Shown piece by piece: positions 4,535 to 19,330 of a stretch of DNA of 22,324 nucleotides. The stretch is taken from positions 1-22,324 of IMG/VR virus record IMGVR_UViG_3300010354_000745; one strand, 5' to 3'. Below the pieces are notes generated by a model that worked only from the letters and a program-made list of their open reading frames with translations, searched no databases and was not told where the DNA came from. The stretch's first letter is position 1; each line of letters opens with the position of its first letter. The DNA is from a virus. A program made the position numbers and the translations under genes.

Positions 4535-5332
4535 TTAGCCTTGTACCCAAGTCAATGGTTGGCTGTAATCTACATAACGTTTTAATTCATCTATTAATGA
4601 TTCTTGTAATGCTTTACCTTCAGCTTTCATAGCAGTACCATTTAATGAAGAACCTCCACCTGGACCTGCTATTGAATTAAATTTTTCACGTGCTTCACCA
4701 ATTGTTACTTTAAGTGTGCCGAGTATAAAATCACCAATCCAAACGCCAGCACCTGGATCTTGCAATAAGACAATCTCTGGTCTTTGTACGTCCGCCCAGA
4801 TCAATACACGTTCACCAGTGGCTTTAGGATCACGAACAATACGCAAGACTTTAGTTACTGGATCAAATGTATAAACAACATAACCACCAAACATACGTGC
4901 AGCTAACTCAATGTAACCAGCATAAAAATCATATGTTGCCATACCACCTGCATAGTTATAGTTCAATAAGTATGTGTTAAGAATAGCACTACTAAATGGA
5001 TCAAAACTGCTTGCACCAGGGCCTGTTTCTAAACCAATAGTTCTACGAAAGATAGAACGCACATTAATGATATCTTGAGGCAACGTGTAAGTGTCCACAT
5101 TCTTTATAACTGTCATTAGTATGTAAGATTCTGCGGTTGAGTTTTGCGCTCTTTGACGATATATTTTTATGGCGTAGTTATAAGCCGCTTCGTAGTGATC
5201 TGGATCTAACTCCAAATCAATCATACCATCACCTAAACGTAGGCGAATATTTTTAAATAATGCTTGTTTTAATTCGTCAAGTGTTAACCCTGACGGCGTA
5301 CTCAAAGGACTTGCTAGTACTGATGCGCTCAT
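4535..5332 (-). CDS. 13: Neck protein gp13-like (head completion)
   Basis: Head-completion/neck protein that with gp14 closes the filled head and joins it to the tail. It has 265 residues (T4 gp13: 309). The N-terminal LKQALFKNIRLRLGDG then ELDPDHYEAAYNYAIKIY parallels T4 gp13 LKDVILRRLG...ELTPDQIYDCIQRALELY. The end, ALQESLIDELKRYVDY...WVQG, parallels the T4 helical tail ending in LYLLDPPFGILVG. These comparisons are from memory, not a search. GGAG lies 6 bases before the ATG, inside one arm of a 13-bp inverted repeat that also holds the late promoter. It is separated from gp14 by two non-structural genes and by strand, unlike the contiguous 13-14-15 order in T4. Confidence 0.85.
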   Translation of the reverse strand: MSASVLASPLSTPSGLTLDELKQALFKNIRLRLGDGMIDLELDPDHYEAAYNYAIKIYRQRAQNSTAESYILMTVIKNVDTYTLPQDIINVRSIFRRTIGLETGPGASSFDPFSSAILNTYLLNYNYAGGMATYDFYAGYIELAARMFGGYVVYTFDPVTKVLRIVRDPKATGERVLIWADVQRPEIVLLQDPGAGVWIGDFILGTLKVTIGEAREKFNSIAGPGGGSSLNGTAMKAEGKALQESLIDELKRYVDYSQPLTWVQG

Positions 5333-5335
5333 AAA

Positions 5336-5366
5336 AAACTCCAGATAACTTATTTATCTGGAGTTT
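5336..5366 (-). terminator. Inverted repeat/terminator overlapping gp13 promoter and Shine-Dalgarno
   Basis: Thirteen-base arms 5336-5348 and 5354-5366 are perfect complements with a 5-base loop. On the minus strand the stem ends in GGAG followed by a run of T, as in an intrinsic terminator for transcription coming from MazG. The second RNA arm contains the GGAG used by gp13, so read-through RNA would hide it. Confidence 0.75.
5351..5358 (-). promoter_or_regulatory. T4-type late promoter for gp13, nested in the inverted repeat
   Basis: GATAAATA on the minus strand, one mismatch from TATAAATA. The predicted start is near 5345, between the two arms of the inverted repeat. Late RNA would therefore lack the first arm, cannot fold the hairpin, and leaves GGAG free about 6 bases before the gp13 ATG. 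Confidence 0.65.
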
Positions 5367-5374
5367 GTTCTTAT

Positions 5375-5788
5375 TTAAAGATCACCTTCTTTTCTATTCT
5401 CACTATAAAATGCATCAAAACTTCCGCCGGGATATCTTGCTTCAAGTTTCTTTACATTCTCTGCAATAACATCATTAGGATCGTATCCAAGTGCCCTACA
5501 AGCATTGATCCAATACCAAATGATATCACCGAGTTCACGCTTCATATGAAAACGATTTTCTTCATTGAAGGGTTTACCTTGAAATATCATTTTCTTTACA
5601 ATCTCATCAAACTCGCCACCTTCACTTGCTAAACCAACTGCGGCTGTCATCAATAAACTAATGTTTAGGTTTGGTTGATCGTCCAACTCTTGCAGCCGGC
5701 GGATCATAGCCGAAACATCATTGCTTGCTTCGCTGGTTACCGCTTCTACAAAGTCCTGATATTTGTTTAAGTCAATTTTTTGTGTCAT
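5375..5788 (-). CDS. MazG-like nucleotide pyrophosphohydrolase
   Basis: All-alpha NTP pyrophosphohydrolase of the MazG/dUTPase-2 superfamily. It hydrolyses (d)NTPs or related nucleotides and is a common phage auxiliary gene, especially in marine T4-like phages. It has 137 residues. The metal-binding pattern ExxE...ExxD is complete: E56/E59 in SEGGEFDE and E85/D88 in RELGDIIWYW. The preferred substrate cannot be told from sequence. The ATG overlaps the end of the upstream 385-aa gene by one base, with AAGG about 8 bases before it, so the two form one unit behind a sigma70 promoter. It ends 9 bases before the inverted-repeat terminator that precedes gp13. Confidence 0.88.
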   Translation of the reverse strand: MTQKIDLNKYQDFVEAVTSEASNDVSAMIRRLQELDDQPNLNISLLMTAAVGLASEGGEFDEIVKKMIFQGKPFNEENRFHMKRELGDIIWYWINACRALGYDPNDVIAENVKKLEARYPGGSFDAFYSENRKEGDL

Positions 5789-6945
5789 TAGAATGCCTTT
5801 AGAATAATAATATTTTCATTAAAGCGGCCGTTAGGCTTTGCAGCTACTGCTTTAATGTTGTCAAAGTATTTACGTGCAGCAGGTTTGCTGCCCATAATTT
5901 CTTTAATTTGCTCACCTGGTTTACGCAATGTTTTGATTTCACTTTTGTTTGCATCAAATCCAAGCAATGTGTTACCTTTAACAGTAAAGGATTTGCTATA
6001 CTCATCTGCAATATAATGATGCAGTTTTCGTTTGCCCGTGTCATATACCCACGCCTCACTTGCACCGTGCAACTTAGTAGGATGGATACTAACCAGTTCA
6101 AGTTTATTTGCAGGATCCTTAAATTCTTTGAGGTATTTAAGTTTGCTAACAATTTTCTCAACAGGTACAGCCTTGCGTTTGCGTGGTGCTTTGCTGGCTT
6201 TCTTAATAGAAATATAACTATTTAGGTCACCCAATACTTGTTCAATGTACTTGATAATATTTCTGACTTGAACCTTACCCAAATATGCATATGCCTCTTT
6301 GAGGTCTTTATCCTCACCTTGAGACAGTTCATCAAACTCAGTTTGTTTTCTTTTCCAAATTTCAACAATCAAAGGAATATGTTGTGGCATAACATTGAAT
6401 TTACTAACAATATCAACTACTTTGCCATTTACCTTACCTGTAGTGATAAAGTCATCAAACAAACCCTCAAGTTCGCCTGCGGCTTCACTTGCCTTTTCCT
6501 TCATTAGTTCTTGTACATTGGGACGATTACTTGGTTTTTCTTCTTTTTCTACAAGTTGCGGCTTTGCGACAACTTTAAGCAACCTACTGATTTCATTTTC
6601 AATTGTTGCTTCCTCATGCTCGGTCAATTCTAGACCTCTAAGTTTCATCCTAGCTAGCCAACACAAGGTCATCAAAAATTCTTTTTCATCTACTTTGCGT
6701 AGAATTTTAGCATCATTTGGTCGGTCGTGATGTTCACAATATTGTGCAAGCAATTCCTTAGCATCTTTCTTACCGTAAAAACGATTGTACCAAGTAAAAC
6801 TTCTTGCCAATGCAATCCTACGTTCAACTTCAATTGGCTGCAATGGGAAGAACGGTTCTTCTCCTAGATACTTAGTATCAGCATCACGCGGATTTAGTGC
6901 TTTAATAAAATGGTCACTAGTCTTTTTAGGCTTTCGAGTTGCCAT
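5788..6945 (-). CDS. Conserved-looking phage protein of unknown function, Lys-rich
   Basis: 385 residues, not assigned to a function. The start is taken as the ATG at 6945 because AGGAG lies 5 bases upstream; the frame also opens at an upstream TTG (6963) with no such site. The protein is charged and mostly helical. There is an acidic/basic mixed middle (residues about 115-225), a basic patch with APRKRK near residue 260, and a more beta-like C-terminal part containing SEAWVYDTGKRKLHHY. No catalytic motif, signal peptide or membrane segment is visible. It is the first gene after a consensus sigma70 promoter and is one-base-coupled to MazG. This points to early, host-polymerase expression and a role in takeover or nucleic acid metabolism rather than the virion. 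That is inference from context. Confidence 0.8.
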   Translation of the reverse strand: MATRKPKKTSDHFIKALNPRDADTKYLGEEPFFPLQPIEVERRIALARSFTWYNRFYGKKDAKELLAQYCEHHDRPNDAKILRKVDEKEFLMTLCWLARMKLRGLELTEHEEATIENEISRLLKVVAKPQLVEKEEKPSNRPNVQELMKEKASEAAGELEGLFDDFITTGKVNGKVVDIVSKFNVMPQHIPLIVEIWKRKQTEFDELSQGEDKDLKEAYAYLGKVQVRNIIKYIEQVLGDLNSYISIKKASKAPRKRKAVPVEKIVSKLKYLKEFKDPANKLELVSIHPTKLHGASEAWVYDTGKRKLHHYIADEYSKSFTVKGNTLLGFDANKSEIKTLRKPGEQIKEIMGSKPAARKYFDNIKAVAAKPNGRFNENIIILKAF

Positions 6946-6970: not shown

Positions 6971-6999
6971 ATTATATATCAAAGTCCATTTATTGTCAA
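6971..6999 (-). promoter_or_regulatory. Consensus sigma70 promoter (early) for 385-aa gene and MazG
   Basis: On the minus strand TTGACA (6994-6999) and TATAAT (6971-6976) are both 6/6 consensus, with an exact 17-bp spacer. The predicted start near 6964 leaves about 19 bases, including AGGAG, before the ATG at 6945. It is the strongest host-type promoter seen in the window. Confidence 0.88.
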
Positions 7000-10168: not shown

Positions 10169-10585
10169 ATGAAAAATACCTCTGCCGGAGTGTTCTTTTA
10201 TTCCAAAACAACTGATAGATTTTTATATCTACTAAGAACAGACAATAAAAATCCTGGAAACTGGGGTATTCCTGGTGGAAAAATAGAAGATGATGAAAGT
10301 TTATTTGAAGGTTTAGAACGTGAATGTACTGAAGAAGTAGGTTATTTTCCCACTAAAGCTAAACTTGTTCCAATACAAAAATTTGTCAACAGAGACTTTA
10401 CTTATCATACGTTTTTTTGTGAAGTTGAAAACGAGTTTGTTCCAGTTTTAAATGACGAGCATTGCGGATATGCATGGGTAGGCGATAATCAATACCCTAA
10501 ACCATTGCATCCTGGATTGTTCAGTACTGTTAATATAGATATTGTTCAAGAAAAATTACATGCTCTAACTAAAAAAGGGGCTTAA
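10169..10585 (+). CDS. Nudix hydrolase
   Basis: Hydrolyses a nucleoside diphosphate linked to another group (damaged NTPs, NDP-sugars, ADP-ribose, dinucleotides or 5' caps are family substrates; which one is not readable here). It has 138 residues, normal for a single Nudix domain. The Nudix box GX5EX7REUXEEXGU is complete at residues 37-59: G37, E43, R51, E52, E55, E56 and G58, with Y at the last, usually aliphatic, position. There is no Shine-Dalgarno; the ATG coincides with the predicted sigma70 start site. It sits at the 3' end of the gp14-gp15 unit but has its own promoter, so it could be made early although late RNA would also cover it. The stop codon lies in the loop of the shared terminator. 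Confidence 0.92.
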   Translation: MKNTSAGVFFYSKTTDRFLYLLRTDNKNPGNWGIPGGKIEDDESLFEGLERECTEEVGYFPTKAKLVPIQKFVNRDFTYHTFFCEVENEFVPVLNDEHCGYAWVGDNQYPKPLHPGLFSTVNIDIVQEKLHALTKKGA

Positions 10586-10597
10586 CGCCCCTTTTTT
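10571..10597. terminator. Bidirectional intrinsic terminator
   Basis: Eleven-base arms 10571-10581 (A6 then GGGGC) and 10587-10597 (GCCCC then T6) with loop TTAAC. It serves the convergent Nudix (+) and holin-like (-) genes. The left arm and loop are the last codons and stop of Nudix, and the right arm ends one base before the stop codon of the minus-strand gene. Confidence 0.92.
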
Positions 10598-10912: not shown

Positions 10913-12025
10913 TTAAGCGTTGCTAATAGTTACGATTGGGTTAGGCTGTCCACCGTATGTATTTGCTGCATAAGCTGTACCAAATGTAGCAATTACGTCT
11001 GGGTTAGCATTACCTAATATTGCAGTACCTGTACCAGAACCTGCTCCTGTAGCAGTGAAAGTAATACCAGTCATATTTGCATAAGCACCAACTGCTGTCC
11101 AGTTTGTATTGCCTGCATTTTGAATTGTATATACTGTTCCTTGTACTAATGAAGCTGCTGCAACTGTTGCCGGGAACACTTCTGATTGATAATCATTTAA
11201 TGACTCAACATACTTTGTTGAAGAATTTGCATATGTTGCTAAGATGTTCATTGTGTTTGGTGTTAGTGCAGCATTGGCAACGTTTGCTGTAAAGCACTGA
11301 GCCACTAAACCAGTTGTTGCACCTTGTACAAGATATTTTGTTTTACCTTTTTGACGTAAGATGAAACCTGCTTCGTTAGTTGCATATACATAACTTGCAT
11401 CTGTAGCATTTGCTGTTGCGTTTGCTGCAAAAGTAGCAAATGTTGCATTTGCGTTAGCGATATCATCAATAACACCCAATACTGTACCATCTGTTAATGT
11501 AACAACTGTACCATCTGTTAATGTGTTAGCAAAGTCAGTACCAACACCATCTAAGTTAGGACTGTCATCTGCAACAGTAATTGTACCATCACCTGCAACA
11601 CCGATAGCAACACGAACTAATGTTTGTGATCCATACAATGCTGTGTTTCCACCTACTACACCATAACTTGTTGAGTTAGTTGCTGTATTGGAACCATCTG
11701 GATTACTAAAACCATAATCAACTAAACCAACTGTAGCAGCTACTGTAGTACCTGAGGTACCTGATAAGTTAACTGGCGTATATGTTGGATTAGCACTTAA
11801 TTGTGTAGCTGATACTGTGAATGTACTTGCACCAGTTACTTTTAAAATCCAATATGTAACACCACCTGTTAAACCACCAGTTGTGCTTGCTGGAATAAAA
11901 GGCATACCTGCAATTACACCCAATGTAGATAATGTTTGTGAAACTGTTACTTCTTCTGTAGTAGCATCAGTTCCTGTGATTGTTAAGACTGCTTGAGCCT
12001 TAGCTATTTTTAAAGGACGTCCCAT
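10913..12025 (-). CDS. Beta-rich virion-type protein, unknown
   Basis: 370 residues, rich in Thr, Ala, Gly, Val and Asn, with almost no charge in the middle. This composition is typical of phage head-fibre, decoration or tail-fibre proteins. Near residues 55-75 it has TYWILKVTGASTFTVSATQL, and near 300-340 VYTIQNAGNTNWTAVGA...GITFTATGAGSGTGTA; both are widespread in phage surface and fibre proteins. No enzyme motif is seen. It has its own late promoter, a leader with two predicted hairpins, and a strong AAGGAGA 8 bases before the ATG. All of this suggests high late expression. The holin-like gene follows after 2 bases. It is probably a structural component; which one cannot be told. Confidence 0.72.
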   Translation of the reverse strand: MGRPLKIAKAQAVLTITGTDATTEEVTVSQTLSTLGVIAGMPFIPASTTGGLTGGVTYWILKVTGASTFTVSATQLSANPTYTPVNLSGTSGTTVAATVGLVDYGFSNPDGSNTATNSTSYGVVGGNTALYGSQTLVRVAIGVAGDGTITVADDSPNLDGVGTDFANTLTDGTVVTLTDGTVLGVIDDIANANATFATFAANATANATDASYVYATNEAGFILRQKGKTKYLVQGATTGLVAQCFTANVANAALTPNTMNILATYANSSTKYVESLNDYQSEVFPATVAAASLVQGTVYTIQNAGNTNWTAVGAYANMTGITFTATGAGSGTGTAILGNANPDVIATFGTAYAANTYGGQPNPIVTISNA

Positions 12026-12064
12026 TTTTTTTCTCCTTGTTTTGATATGTGGGTTCTATTCCAC

Positions 12065-12103
12065 TACGCGGCGGGGACCGCATAAACTCTCAGAATTAAG
12101 AGT
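12065..12103 (-). other. Two hairpins in the 5' leader of the 370-aa virion-type gene
   Basis: In the minus-strand RNA, hairpin 1 pairs 12099-12103 with 12086-12090 (5 bp, 8-base loop). Hairpin 2 pairs 12078-12084 with 12065-12071 (7 bp including one G-U, 6-base loop). The G-U pair forms only in minus-strand RNA. The GC-rich block GCGGTCCCCGCCGC stands out in AT-rich surroundings. Both lie at the predicted 5' end of the late mRNA. Confidence 0.6.
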
Positions 12104-13126: not shown

Positions 13127-13366
13127 TTTCCATGGTCTGCCTTGATCAGGCAATAATGCTCTGTCTGCCCATGTGGTAAAATAATTATATTCTCTATAAT
13201 ATGGCTCACCAACACTAGAACGAATTGGTTCAGCAACTTCTAATAATTTAATACTAGCCTTTGCTTCTTGTAATGTTAGACTTTGAGAAACTGCTAGTGC
13301 AGGCGCATTGGTCTCTATATAATCATTCCAATTATCGTATCCAGATGGTGTTGGTGGTAATGCCAT
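13115..13366 (-). CDS. Small unknown protein coupled to the tail fibre
   Basis: 83 residues, unknown. It is rich in aromatic residues and proline, without a signal peptide or membrane segment: SGYDNWNDYIETNAP near the start, YYREYNYFTTWADRALLP near the end. The ATG overlaps the tail-fibre stop (TAATG), with AGGAAG 7 bases upstream, so it is translated with the fibre and is probably a fibre-associated virion protein or assembly factor. Its 3' end overlaps the glycosyltransferase-like gene by 12 bases on the opposite strand. Confidence 0.72.
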   Translation of the reverse strand: MALPPTPSGYDNWNDYIETNAPALAVSQSLTLQEAKASIKLLEVAEPIRSSVGEPYYREYNYFTTWADRALLPDQGRPWKLQP

Positions 13367-15435
13367 TATAGTCTTCCTACTGCTATTTCTATAATGCCTT
13401 CAACACCTTCAAAATTTTGAATAGCTTTACCTATTACCATGCCAGGTGTTGCATTATTCCATGGTCTTGCATAACCATTTCCTCCAGATACCATTAAGTC
13501 ACCCTTTTTAATATGACCTCTTACTTTAACAGGAACTCTACCTTGTAATGCAATAGGAACTGCATGTCCTGGACATCCAGCATTCATAACATATGCAGGA
13601 TCCGTACTGACTACACCTGCAACTCTAGTAGTACCATCTTGTGCTAATGTAACTTCTTTTTCACCGCCAAATTCTAATACAGTAGCAGGTTCGTATAGTT
13701 GATCTGCTTCATAATATTCAGCCAAGTCAGCATATGTAGCTTGTAAACGTGACCCTGCTGTTAGAACCCAATTACCAGTAATATTACCTAACGTTGTGTT
13801 AGCACCTGTACTTAGTTCTGTTGTAAGCATATTGCCAACAAAGTTTGTTGCTCCAATATTACCTACGTTTGCGTTTCCACTTACACTTAATGTTCCATTA
13901 ATGTTTGCACCAGTAGATGTGATTATAAGTTCAGTGGCGCCACCTGCAGCAGTGACTGAAATATTACCATTTGCCGTTATTGCAATATTACTATTACCGT
14001 TCTGAAGTAATCCACTATTAATTGTAGTAATGTTACCAGTTGTGATGATTGCTGTTGTAGTACCTAAGTTTCCAACGTTTGCATTACCACTTACTGATAA
14101 ACTTGTTAAAGTACCAACGCTTGTAATATTTGATTGTGCGCCCGTTGTAACAGTTCCTGCTGTTCCAGCAGTTGCAACACTCAAGTTAGCAACTTGAGTT
14201 GTTGATGTTACAACAAATGGAGCAGTACCAGTTACAATGTTAGATATTAATTGTGGTGCGGTAATATTAGCAGACGCCAATAATTGAGTTGTACCTAAGT
14301 TACCGACATTAGCATTTCCAGTTACACTTAATCGTGAGGAATTCAATAATCCTGTCGCAACATCAACGCTTAAATTTGCATTTGCAAATTCACTTACATT
14401 ACCTGTTAGTGCATTAGCTAACATTAAATAATGTGTACCTGTTGTTGCTGTAGTTATACTTATAAAATCTGTAACATTTGAATAAGCAACATTTAAGTTA
14501 CCTACACGTGTAGTACTAGTAACAACTAATGGTGAAGTTCCTGTTGCAACGTTAGATATCAATCTACTTGCAGTAACATTACTACTTACATTTAAATTAC
14601 CAGTTACATTACTTGTACCGGTAACATTAAGTGTTGAAGTTGTATTATTCCATGTAAAACTTGAGTCTCCGGCTGGGACACCTGCATAGTTATACTGTAC
14701 TGAAAATGTTGTGCCGGCTGCGCCTCCACCGCCCCCACCACTTCCCCCAACACTTGTAATAGCCCTACCATTTCCAGTATATGCTCCATATCCAGTGCCG
14801 TTAATTGGAATAGTCAATGCTGAATCACTATACAAACTAAACGTATTTGATGTAAGAACATTTGCAAAGTAACTGTTGCCGTTAAGTTGAGTCATGCCAC
14901 TGACGTTTGTGATTGTTACAACATCCCCGTCTGTAAAAAAGTTATCTGCACTTGTTGTTATAACAACAGGACTAGCTTGTGTAGCATTAGATATGTTAGC
15001 TGAAATAACTCCTTTAGGAGTCCAAGACAAGTTACCAGTACCATCAGTTTCTAATATATAACCAATAGCGCCACCACCAATTTTTAGTGTGCTTACGTTA
15101 CCCAAATGTATAGGACTACTGGCCCAATAGCTTGGTTCACCTGGATCAAGCGCATTGCCACCTCCATTTAACCAAGCATTTGAAGATTCATCATATACCA
15201 ATACTTGTCCGGTAACTGGACTTGAAATATTTAAATTCCCATAACTTCCAGTTAATTGACTGAAATCAATATTAGAGTATGAGGTTAATATTTCAATGTT
15301 TTCATTAGGTGTTGTTTTTCCTATAAACAGTCTTTTAGTATCTGAGGCCCAACCGAATTCAGCTTCATCAAGTTGCGGCAAATCAACTAAATTGCCAGAA
15401 CGAACTTGTATTTTTGATATTTGAATAATTGCCAT
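13366..15435 (-). CDS. Long tail-fibre/adhesin protein with repeats and C-terminal chaperone-like domain
   Basis: 689 residues. The N-terminus IQISKIQVRSGNLVDLPQLD then AEFGWASDTKRLFIGK (about 4-40) is the attachment-type head common in phage fibres. A Gly-rich linker GGSGGGGGGAAG followed by TTFSVQYN is also typical. The shaft repeats SGNANVGNLGTT-type units three times (roughly 14294-14331, 14060-14100 and 13853-13890). LISN-x-x-TGT-x-P-x-VVTSTT occurs twice (around 14521-14564 and 14211-14254). The last ~124 residues (from about 566: YADLAEYYEADQLYEPATV...GRVPVKVRGHIKKGDLMVSG) form a conserved C-terminal domain of marine phage fibres, resembling trimerising/self-cleaving chaperone domains. 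The likely role is host recognition. The late promoter lies in an inverted repeat just upstream; only a weak GAGA precedes the ATG. Confidence 0.87.
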   Translation of the reverse strand: MAIIQISKIQVRSGNLVDLPQLDEAEFGWASDTKRLFIGKTTPNENIEILTSYSNIDFSQLTGSYGNLNISSPVTGQVLVYDESSNAWLNGGGNALDPGEPSYWASSPIHLGNVSTLKIGGGAIGYILETDGTGNLSWTPKGVISANISNATQASPVVITTSADNFFTDGDVVTITNVSGMTQLNGNSYFANVLTSNTFSLYSDSALTIPINGTGYGAYTGNGRAITSVGGSGGGGGGAAGTTFSVQYNYAGVPAGDSSFTWNNTTSTLNVTGTSNVTGNLNVSSNVTASRLISNVATGTSPLVVTSTTRVGNLNVAYSNVTDFISITTATTGTHYLMLANALTGNVSEFANANLSVDVATGLLNSSRLSVTGNANVGNLGTTQLLASANITAPQLISNIVTGTAPFVVTSTTQVANLSVATAGTAGTVTTGAQSNITSVGTLTSLSVSGNANVGNLGTTTAIITTGNITTINSGLLQNGNSNIAITANGNISVTAAGGATELIITSTGANINGTLSVSGNANVGNIGATNFVGNMLTTELSTGANTTLGNITGNWVLTAGSRLQATYADLAEYYEADQLYEPATVLEFGGEKEVTLAQDGTTRVAGVVSTDPAYVMNAGCPGHAVPIALQGRVPVKVRGHIKKGDLMVSGGNGYARPWNNATPGMVIGKAIQNFEGVEGIIEIAVGRL

Positions 15436-15461
15436 AAGTGTAAATTCTCGGATTTACACTT
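15436..15461 (-). other. Inverted repeat abutting the tail-fibre start codon
   Basis: Perfect 10-base arms AAGTGTAAAT (15436-15445) and ATTTACACTT (15452-15461) with a 6-base loop. In minus-strand RNA the hairpin ends directly at the ATG (15435), with the weak GAGA site in the loop. Read-through RNA from the exonuclease gene would fold it; RNA from the late promoter would start inside the first arm. Confidence 0.68.
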
Positions 15462-15468
15462 ATTTATC
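15461..15468 (-). promoter_or_regulatory. T4-type late promoter for the tail fibre
   Basis: GATAAATA on the minus strand, one mismatch from TATAAATA. It touches the inverted repeat; the predicted start near 15455 would remove most of the first arm from the mRNA. Confidence 0.65.
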
Positions 15469-19303: not shown

Positions 19304-19330
19304 AAAAAGCCCGATAAAATCGGGCTTTTT
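19304..19330. terminator. Strong intrinsic terminator after the small virion-type gene
   Basis: Perfect 12-base arms 19304-19315 and 19319-19330 (A5-GCCCGAT / ATCGGGC-T5) with a 3-base loop and an extended T run on the minus strand. It ends the 121-aa gene transcript and insulates it from the late promoter at 19289. Confidence 0.92.

Follow-up and report, generated by a model that had tools for sequence, protein, structure and literature searches.

How can a late gene be kept silent if early genes precede it in the same orientation? This general problem is raised by a locus in IMG/VR virus record IMGVR_UViG_3300010354_000745, from which a stretch of 22,324 nucleotides (hereafter the window) was analyzed and in which a perfect inverted repeat separates a presumed early unit from a structural gene. 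The gene concerned encodes a 265-aa head-tail adaptor (neck protein) of the gp13/Ad2 type (4535..5332, minus strand; PHROG 211, E=3e-22). By gp13, the closest named phages are jumbo myoviruses, namely Agrobacterium phage Atu_ph07 (41% identity), Sinorhizobium phage Phosso, the RaK2/PBECO4/GAP32 group and PA5oct, and IMG/VR holds many much closer relatives with gp13 proteins 80-90% identical. Directly upstream of gp13 lies a gene for a MazG-like pyrophosphohydrolase (5375..5788, minus strand; PHROG 229, E=3e-48; Pfam MazG, E=8e-9), preceded by a 385-aa gene (5788..6945, minus strand; PHROG 11903) that comes first in the presumed early unit and whose conserved start in relatives is the ATG at 6945. 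The unit is headed by a sigma70-type promoter, TTGACA-17-TATAAT (6971..6999, minus strand), that matches the consensus at 12/12 positions; a promoter with 11 or 12 of 12 matches and a 17-bp spacer was found upstream of the orthologous gene in 55/56 relatives. Given the same-strand genes upstream and the conservation of this consensus promoter, early read-through from it into gp13 is likely.

The minus-strand leader of gp13, starting at the stop codon of MazG (5375), is ...AACAAACTCCAGATAAATAAGTTATCTGGAGTTTTTTATGAGCGCA, and its parts follow in the order AAACTCCAGATAA (5366-5354), ATAAG (5353-5349), TTATCTGGAGTTT (5348-5336), TTT and the ATG (5332). Re-reading of the sequence confirmed the coordinates and description of the 13-bp perfect repeat: between 5366 and 5336 all 13 of 13 positions pair, 4/13 as G-C, around the 5-nt loop ATAAG (5349..5353), and the resulting stem exceeds in length every other terminator-like stem in the part of the window that was scanned. 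Both the first arm (5354..5366) and the second (5336..5348) are defined by sequence, by fold and by their covariation in relatives, the loop by sequence and fold, the spacing between the arms differing among relatives. The Shine-Dalgarno sequence of gp13, GGAG, is read directly within the second arm (5342-5339), as had been claimed, and a run of six T's (5333..5338) extends from it to the ATG, giving the element a terminator-like appearance in this phage. A 51-nt RNA containing the element folds at -17 kcal/mol, compared with -5.0 +/- 2.0 for shuffled sequences (z = -6.1; 0/200 shuffles equally stable). Because the first arm begins only 9 nt past the MazG stop codon, a ribosome terminating there could open part of the hairpin.

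Nested in this hairpin is the box GATAAATA (5351..5358, minus strand). The sequence-only reading had located it inside the first RNA arm; its first five bases are indeed there, and its last three belong to the loop, so that it overlaps the arm without being wholly contained in it. The box was present in 80/80 of the closest IMG/VR relatives and in 81/81 gp13 leaders examined, and it recurs before many structural genes in related records. There, exact GATAAATA is strand-biased, commoner than its reversed control and usually located ~20-35 nt ahead of structural-gene starts, which makes it very probably a late promoter. A simple count of GATAAATA-like sites at one mismatch in the window revealed no enrichment (78 found, 77.6 expected). 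A late motif, ATAAATA, together with a gp55-like sigma factor has been proposed for RaK2-type phages by the authors of the CBB study, in its section on transcription (PMC5259590). We identified a late sigma factor gene in one related record, G001 (PHROG 12791, E = 4.5e-73, and, less strongly, PHROG 234); none was seen in the window's own 22-kb record, and the gp55 search gave no match in RaK2 itself and only a weak one in GAP32. In T4, the late TATA box lies about one helical turn upstream of the start (PMC2988020). Applied to GATAAATA, this T4-like spacing predicts a late start at the end of the box plus 6 (+/-2), at 5345 on the minus strand, about three bases into the second arm. An earlier proposal that late RNA starts between the arms would thus be essentially correct in position, the predicted start lying slightly inside the second arm. 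From there the late leader of gp13 would measure about 13 nt, and the RNA beginning at this point has no comparable fold.

These observations led us to regard the gp13 hairpin, with high confidence, as a probable stage-specific lock on translation, of the type known from T4 genes e and 49 and the I-Tev genes. Early transcripts begun at the sigma70 promoter (6999-6971) would cross the 385-aa gene and the MazG gene into gp13, and the read-through RNA, holding both arms, would fold into a hairpin covering GGAG and leave gp13 untranslated early. Once a gp55-type late sigma factor has taken over, RNA polymerase would initiate inside the hairpin, at the GATAAATA box; lacking its first arm, the late RNA would be unable to fold, and its short leader would present a free ribosome site from which gp13 is translated. 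What the sequences contribute to this reading is the anatomy of the leader, its conservation, the compensatory changes between arms, the sigma70 promoter, the late sigma factor gene and the computed accessibilities of the ribosome site.

We computed accessibility as the mean probability that positions -14 to +3 are unpaired, the late RNA being taken as starting 6 nt after the box. Folding both transcript forms, as had been suggested, gave the expected picture of a start region closed on read-through RNA and open on late RNA: mean accessibility over 44 gp13 leaders was 0.18 for the former and 0.71 for the latter, and the corresponding values in the window were 0.07 and 0.50. Late genes without a strong hairpin gave 0.53 on read-through RNA and 0.68 on late RNA. 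The late value depends little on the exact start, being 0.70-0.72 for any start 4-8 nt past the box. When the 14 nt upstream of the box were exchanged between loci, accessibility rose from 0.18-0.19 to 0.30, and when they were shuffled it rose to 0.47; therefore the arms are matched locus by locus.

Covariation was assessed on 44 distinct gp13 leaders that have no intervening noncoding stretch. Far from showing the non-complementary arms that had been set beforehand as the finding against the hairpin, the relatives have arms that co-vary. Changes on both sides occur in 9/15 pairs, all within the 11-pair outer helix, and amount to 71 cells compared with 34.5 +/- 4.7 in shuffled controls; the covariation score is 0.279, against 0.135 +/- 0.011 for shuffled leaders and at most 0.061 with slid partners. 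Pairing is kept in arm variants as different as AAACTCCAGAT/ATCTGGAGTTT, GTTTCCTGAT/ATCAGGAAAC, ATTCCCTGAT/ATCAGGGAAT and GTTCTTAGAT/ATCTAGGAAC. The covarying arms lend strong comparative support to the claim that a putative late promoter is nested in a hairpin that would hide the gp13 ribosome site, as in T4 genes e and 49.

The arrangement extends to distant phages. Across groups, gp13 homologues share only about 31-42% mutual identity, and GAP32, PBECO4, Munch, Hallingskeid, XbC2, XaC1 and RaK2 all have a long stem in the gp13 leader with the same order of parts and group-specific letters. In leaders of the RaK2 type the late box (CTAAATA or CTATAAATA) is in contact with the first arm, and GAGG or AGGGG lies in the second. 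In RaK2 itself (NC_019526; L086:1441-1454) the annotated gp13 ATG sits in the middle of the hairpin, and translation probably begins 12 nt downstream, at an ATG where the second arm ends. Four phages, Atu_ph07, Phosso, Vibrio phage 2.275 and Salicola phage SCTP-2, have a divergent gene upstream of gp13, and no comparable hairpin over the ribosome site was found in their gp13 leaders. This absence in a handful of cases agrees with a putative role against early read-through.

A second hairpin of this kind is found in the window before a tail-fibre-like gene (13366..15435, minus strand), which matches PHROG 19602, tail fiber protein (E=3e-9), and two larger families of unknown function. A second GATAAATA box lies upstream of this gene (15461..15468, minus strand), and the hairpin ATAAGTGTAAAT/ATTTACACTTAT (15434..15463, minus strand), recognized by its fold and by covariation in 37 leaders, forms a perfect 12-bp stem (15463-15452 / 15445-15434) whose first arm starts inside the late box. 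The 3' arm takes in the AT of the start codon, so that the A and U of the AUG are paired with the late box itself. The box thus occupies a position in the stem unlike that in the gp13 leader, yet a late start would again take away most of the first arm. The covariation score of the fibre leader was 0.210 in 37 relatives, compared with 0.096 +/- 0.012 when shuffled, with arm variants AAGTGT/ACACTT, AAGTAT/ATACTT, AAGAGT/ACTCTT and AGATGT/ACATCT. Other genes in related records also carry hairpins at late boxes, among them the gene of a 55-aa protein with AAATACTC/GGAGTATTT. Across seven records, strong hairpins accompany 18/65 late boxes behind a same-strand gene and 0/11 behind a divergent gene, a small, phylogenetically uncorrected contrast that is only suggestive of a read-through role because many of the loci are orthologous. 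The 54-55-aa protein (MAKIVxx...) has a near-invariant AAATACTC/GGAGTATTT hairpin over the late box with GGAG inside it (G001:28281, G002:87155, G003:10967, G005:72176 and G006:41367), and since its arms do not vary it gives little covariation information.

Several loci depart from the compact leader. A stretch of ~400 nt without a convincing gene separates gp13 from the upstream gene at L071:1140-1510 and in L022, L028, L053, L069, L070, L077 and L080; it is similar among the loci that carry it, ends in GAGTAGAT..ATCTACTCGCC, and is accompanied by a degenerate gp13 hairpin. A phylogenetic test of the stretch against hairpin loss pointed in the expected direction, with just two supported independent pairs, too few to be used as evidence. 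The stretch was rejected as a known RNA: it contains no tRNA or tmRNA, six scanned loci had no Rfam match, and the L071 copy has no excess fold stability. Comparison of L071:1525-1570 with L064 revealed an unchanged second arm (TTATTAGGTAACAC) and entirely different sequence upstream of GATAAATA, as if leaders behind the stretch had arisen by module exchange at the late box itself.

Elsewhere in the window, positions 12023-12102 (minus strand) match the Rfam freshwater-2 RNA (RF02980; 63.5 bits, above the gathering score) directly downstream of a late box at 12119-12112, and the match touches the start of a 370-aa ORF at 12025. Since look-alikes come after late boxes in five related records (G001, G002, G003, G005 and G006), a late gene may have this RNA as its 5' leader. 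At 19304-19330 (AAAAAGCCCGAT/ATCGGGCTTTTT) and 10571-10597 (AAAAAAGGGGC/GCCCCTTTTTT), two inverted repeats richer in G+C and bordered by A and T runs resemble ordinary terminators, unlike the A+T-rich gp13 hairpin.

The sequence-only reading had also made the gp13 hairpin the terminator of the early unit. In its strongest form, this idea would make the element mainly an intrinsic terminator of the 385-aa/MazG unit, the overlap with late promoter and ribosome site being compact but secondary. We consider this unlikely, even though the window has six T's at the end of the perfect stem (GGAGTTT then TTT) and a T run also follows the gp13 hairpin in GAP32, PBECO4, XaC1 and their relatives, as well as one other hairpin leader (G004:28979). 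Within the clade, the T run is confined to the window, L003 and L025, and 41/44 distinct leaders lack it while retaining a covarying hairpin; therefore termination is not what conserves the element. Moreover, just 4/13 pairs of the stem are G-C, and the window's second hairpin (15434-15463) has no T run. The hairpin also goes with gp13 rather than with the gene before it, which is MazG in 46 loci and one of several other genes in the remaining loci, and is retained regardless. Termination is thus unsupported as a general function of the hairpin; it may be an extra function in the window, in a few relatives and in some RaK2-type phages.

The association with gp13 bears equally on the idea that the hairpin is a nuclease barrier or processing site at the 3' end of the upstream mRNA, with no control over gp13 translation. 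Its location just past the upstream stop codon, and its retention mostly behind same-strand genes, would suit such a function. The hairpin, however, does not belong to any one upstream gene, its second arm invariably contains the ribosome site or AUG, and a 3' barrier needs no stem covering the next start; we find this explanation highly improbable. A role at the DNA level, in which the palindrome would be an operator through which a dimeric repressor or the phage's own late factor controls the late promoter, in the way that I-TevI regulates its own, appears improbable as well. The palindrome does overlap the promoter, I-TevI autorepression is a precedent (PMC2988022), and the RNA-strand test leaves room for it, G-U and A-C mismatches standing at 27:11 in gp13 leaders, where the excess comes mostly from one pair, and at 5:8 in fibre leaders. 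On the other hand, the distance between arms varies among gp13 leaders and in fibre leaders runs from some 4 nt up to much greater lengths, while the arm letters differ wholly between gp13 and fibre leaders and between phages, as does the position of the box in the stem; no common binding site is therefore left, and the feature that the leaders do share is a masked ribosome site or start codon. An operator for a dimeric repressor with shared half-sites at fixed spacing was rejected, as neither spacing nor sequence is kept.

The proposed translational lock also has implications beyond gp13. Its spread across gp13 homologues that are only distantly similar, together with covariation at two genes in dozens of leaders, gives a lock on jumbo-phage virion genes the look of a general solution. 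It leads to a testable rule, according to which the lock is expected where early read-through reaches a late gene and missing where read-through cannot. We tentatively propose, as a possibility that is still rather doubtful, that a late promoter nested in a masking hairpin is a routine way to place late structural genes behind early operons in these jumbo phages, and that in some lineages the same 31 bases act as promoter, lock and intrinsic terminator. Annotators should be cautious, as hairpins beside late boxes may be ribosome-site locks and not terminators.

Previously, the T4 e/49/I-Tev switch had been described in T4-like phages, usually one leader at a time and mainly for lysozyme and mobile endonucleases. 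As described in PMC3014915 (section 29), T4 gene e has a late box in the upstream part of a hairpin and its Shine-Dalgarno sequence in the second arm, and late RNA without the first arm is well translated. Computed by our method, the accessibility of e is 0.18 on the long RNA and 0.54 on the late RNA, resembling the values in the window. The two differ in that e encodes a lysozyme and the locus studied here a head-tail adaptor, that the T4 leader has two late promoters and no T run, and that repression is experimentally shown in T4 while here it is predicted from sequence. Gene 49 is named in PMC3014915 among T4 leaders with an inhibitory structure. With its box at the outer end of the stem and an accessibility of 0.07 on the long RNA and 0.55 on the late RNA, it matches the fibre leader of the window (15434-15468), the differences being that gene 49 encodes an endonuclease rather than a tail-fibre-like protein and that in the fibre leader the A and T of the start codon pair with the box. 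In T4 itself, the 70 nt preceding the gp13 start contain no recognisable late box, and gp13 lacks this arrangement.

In the CBB and GAP32 phages, the ATAAATA motif is likewise a predicted T4-like late box before structural genes, accompanied by a predicted gp55-like sigma factor; the transcription section of that study (PMC5259590) leaves a ribosome-site hairpin unmentioned, and the hairpin is the addition made here. A further parallel is found in the homing endonuclease genes I-TevI, I-TevII, I-TevIII, segB and Aeh1 mobE, for which PMC2988022 (section 12) describes a hairpin covering the ribosome site in early and middle transcripts and an internal late promoter that frees it (I-TevII gives 0.31 on long RNA and 0.88 on late RNA by our method). 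A hairpin lock on jumbo-phage virion genes, or such deep conservation of one, was not found in the part of the open-access literature searched. Those endonuclease leaders belong to mobile elements of T4-related phages, whereas the leaders described here precede structural genes of jumbo myoviruses in the RaK2/Atu_ph07 neighbourhood: the kind of device is already known, and what is added is its use on jumbo-phage virion genes and the depth of its conservation.
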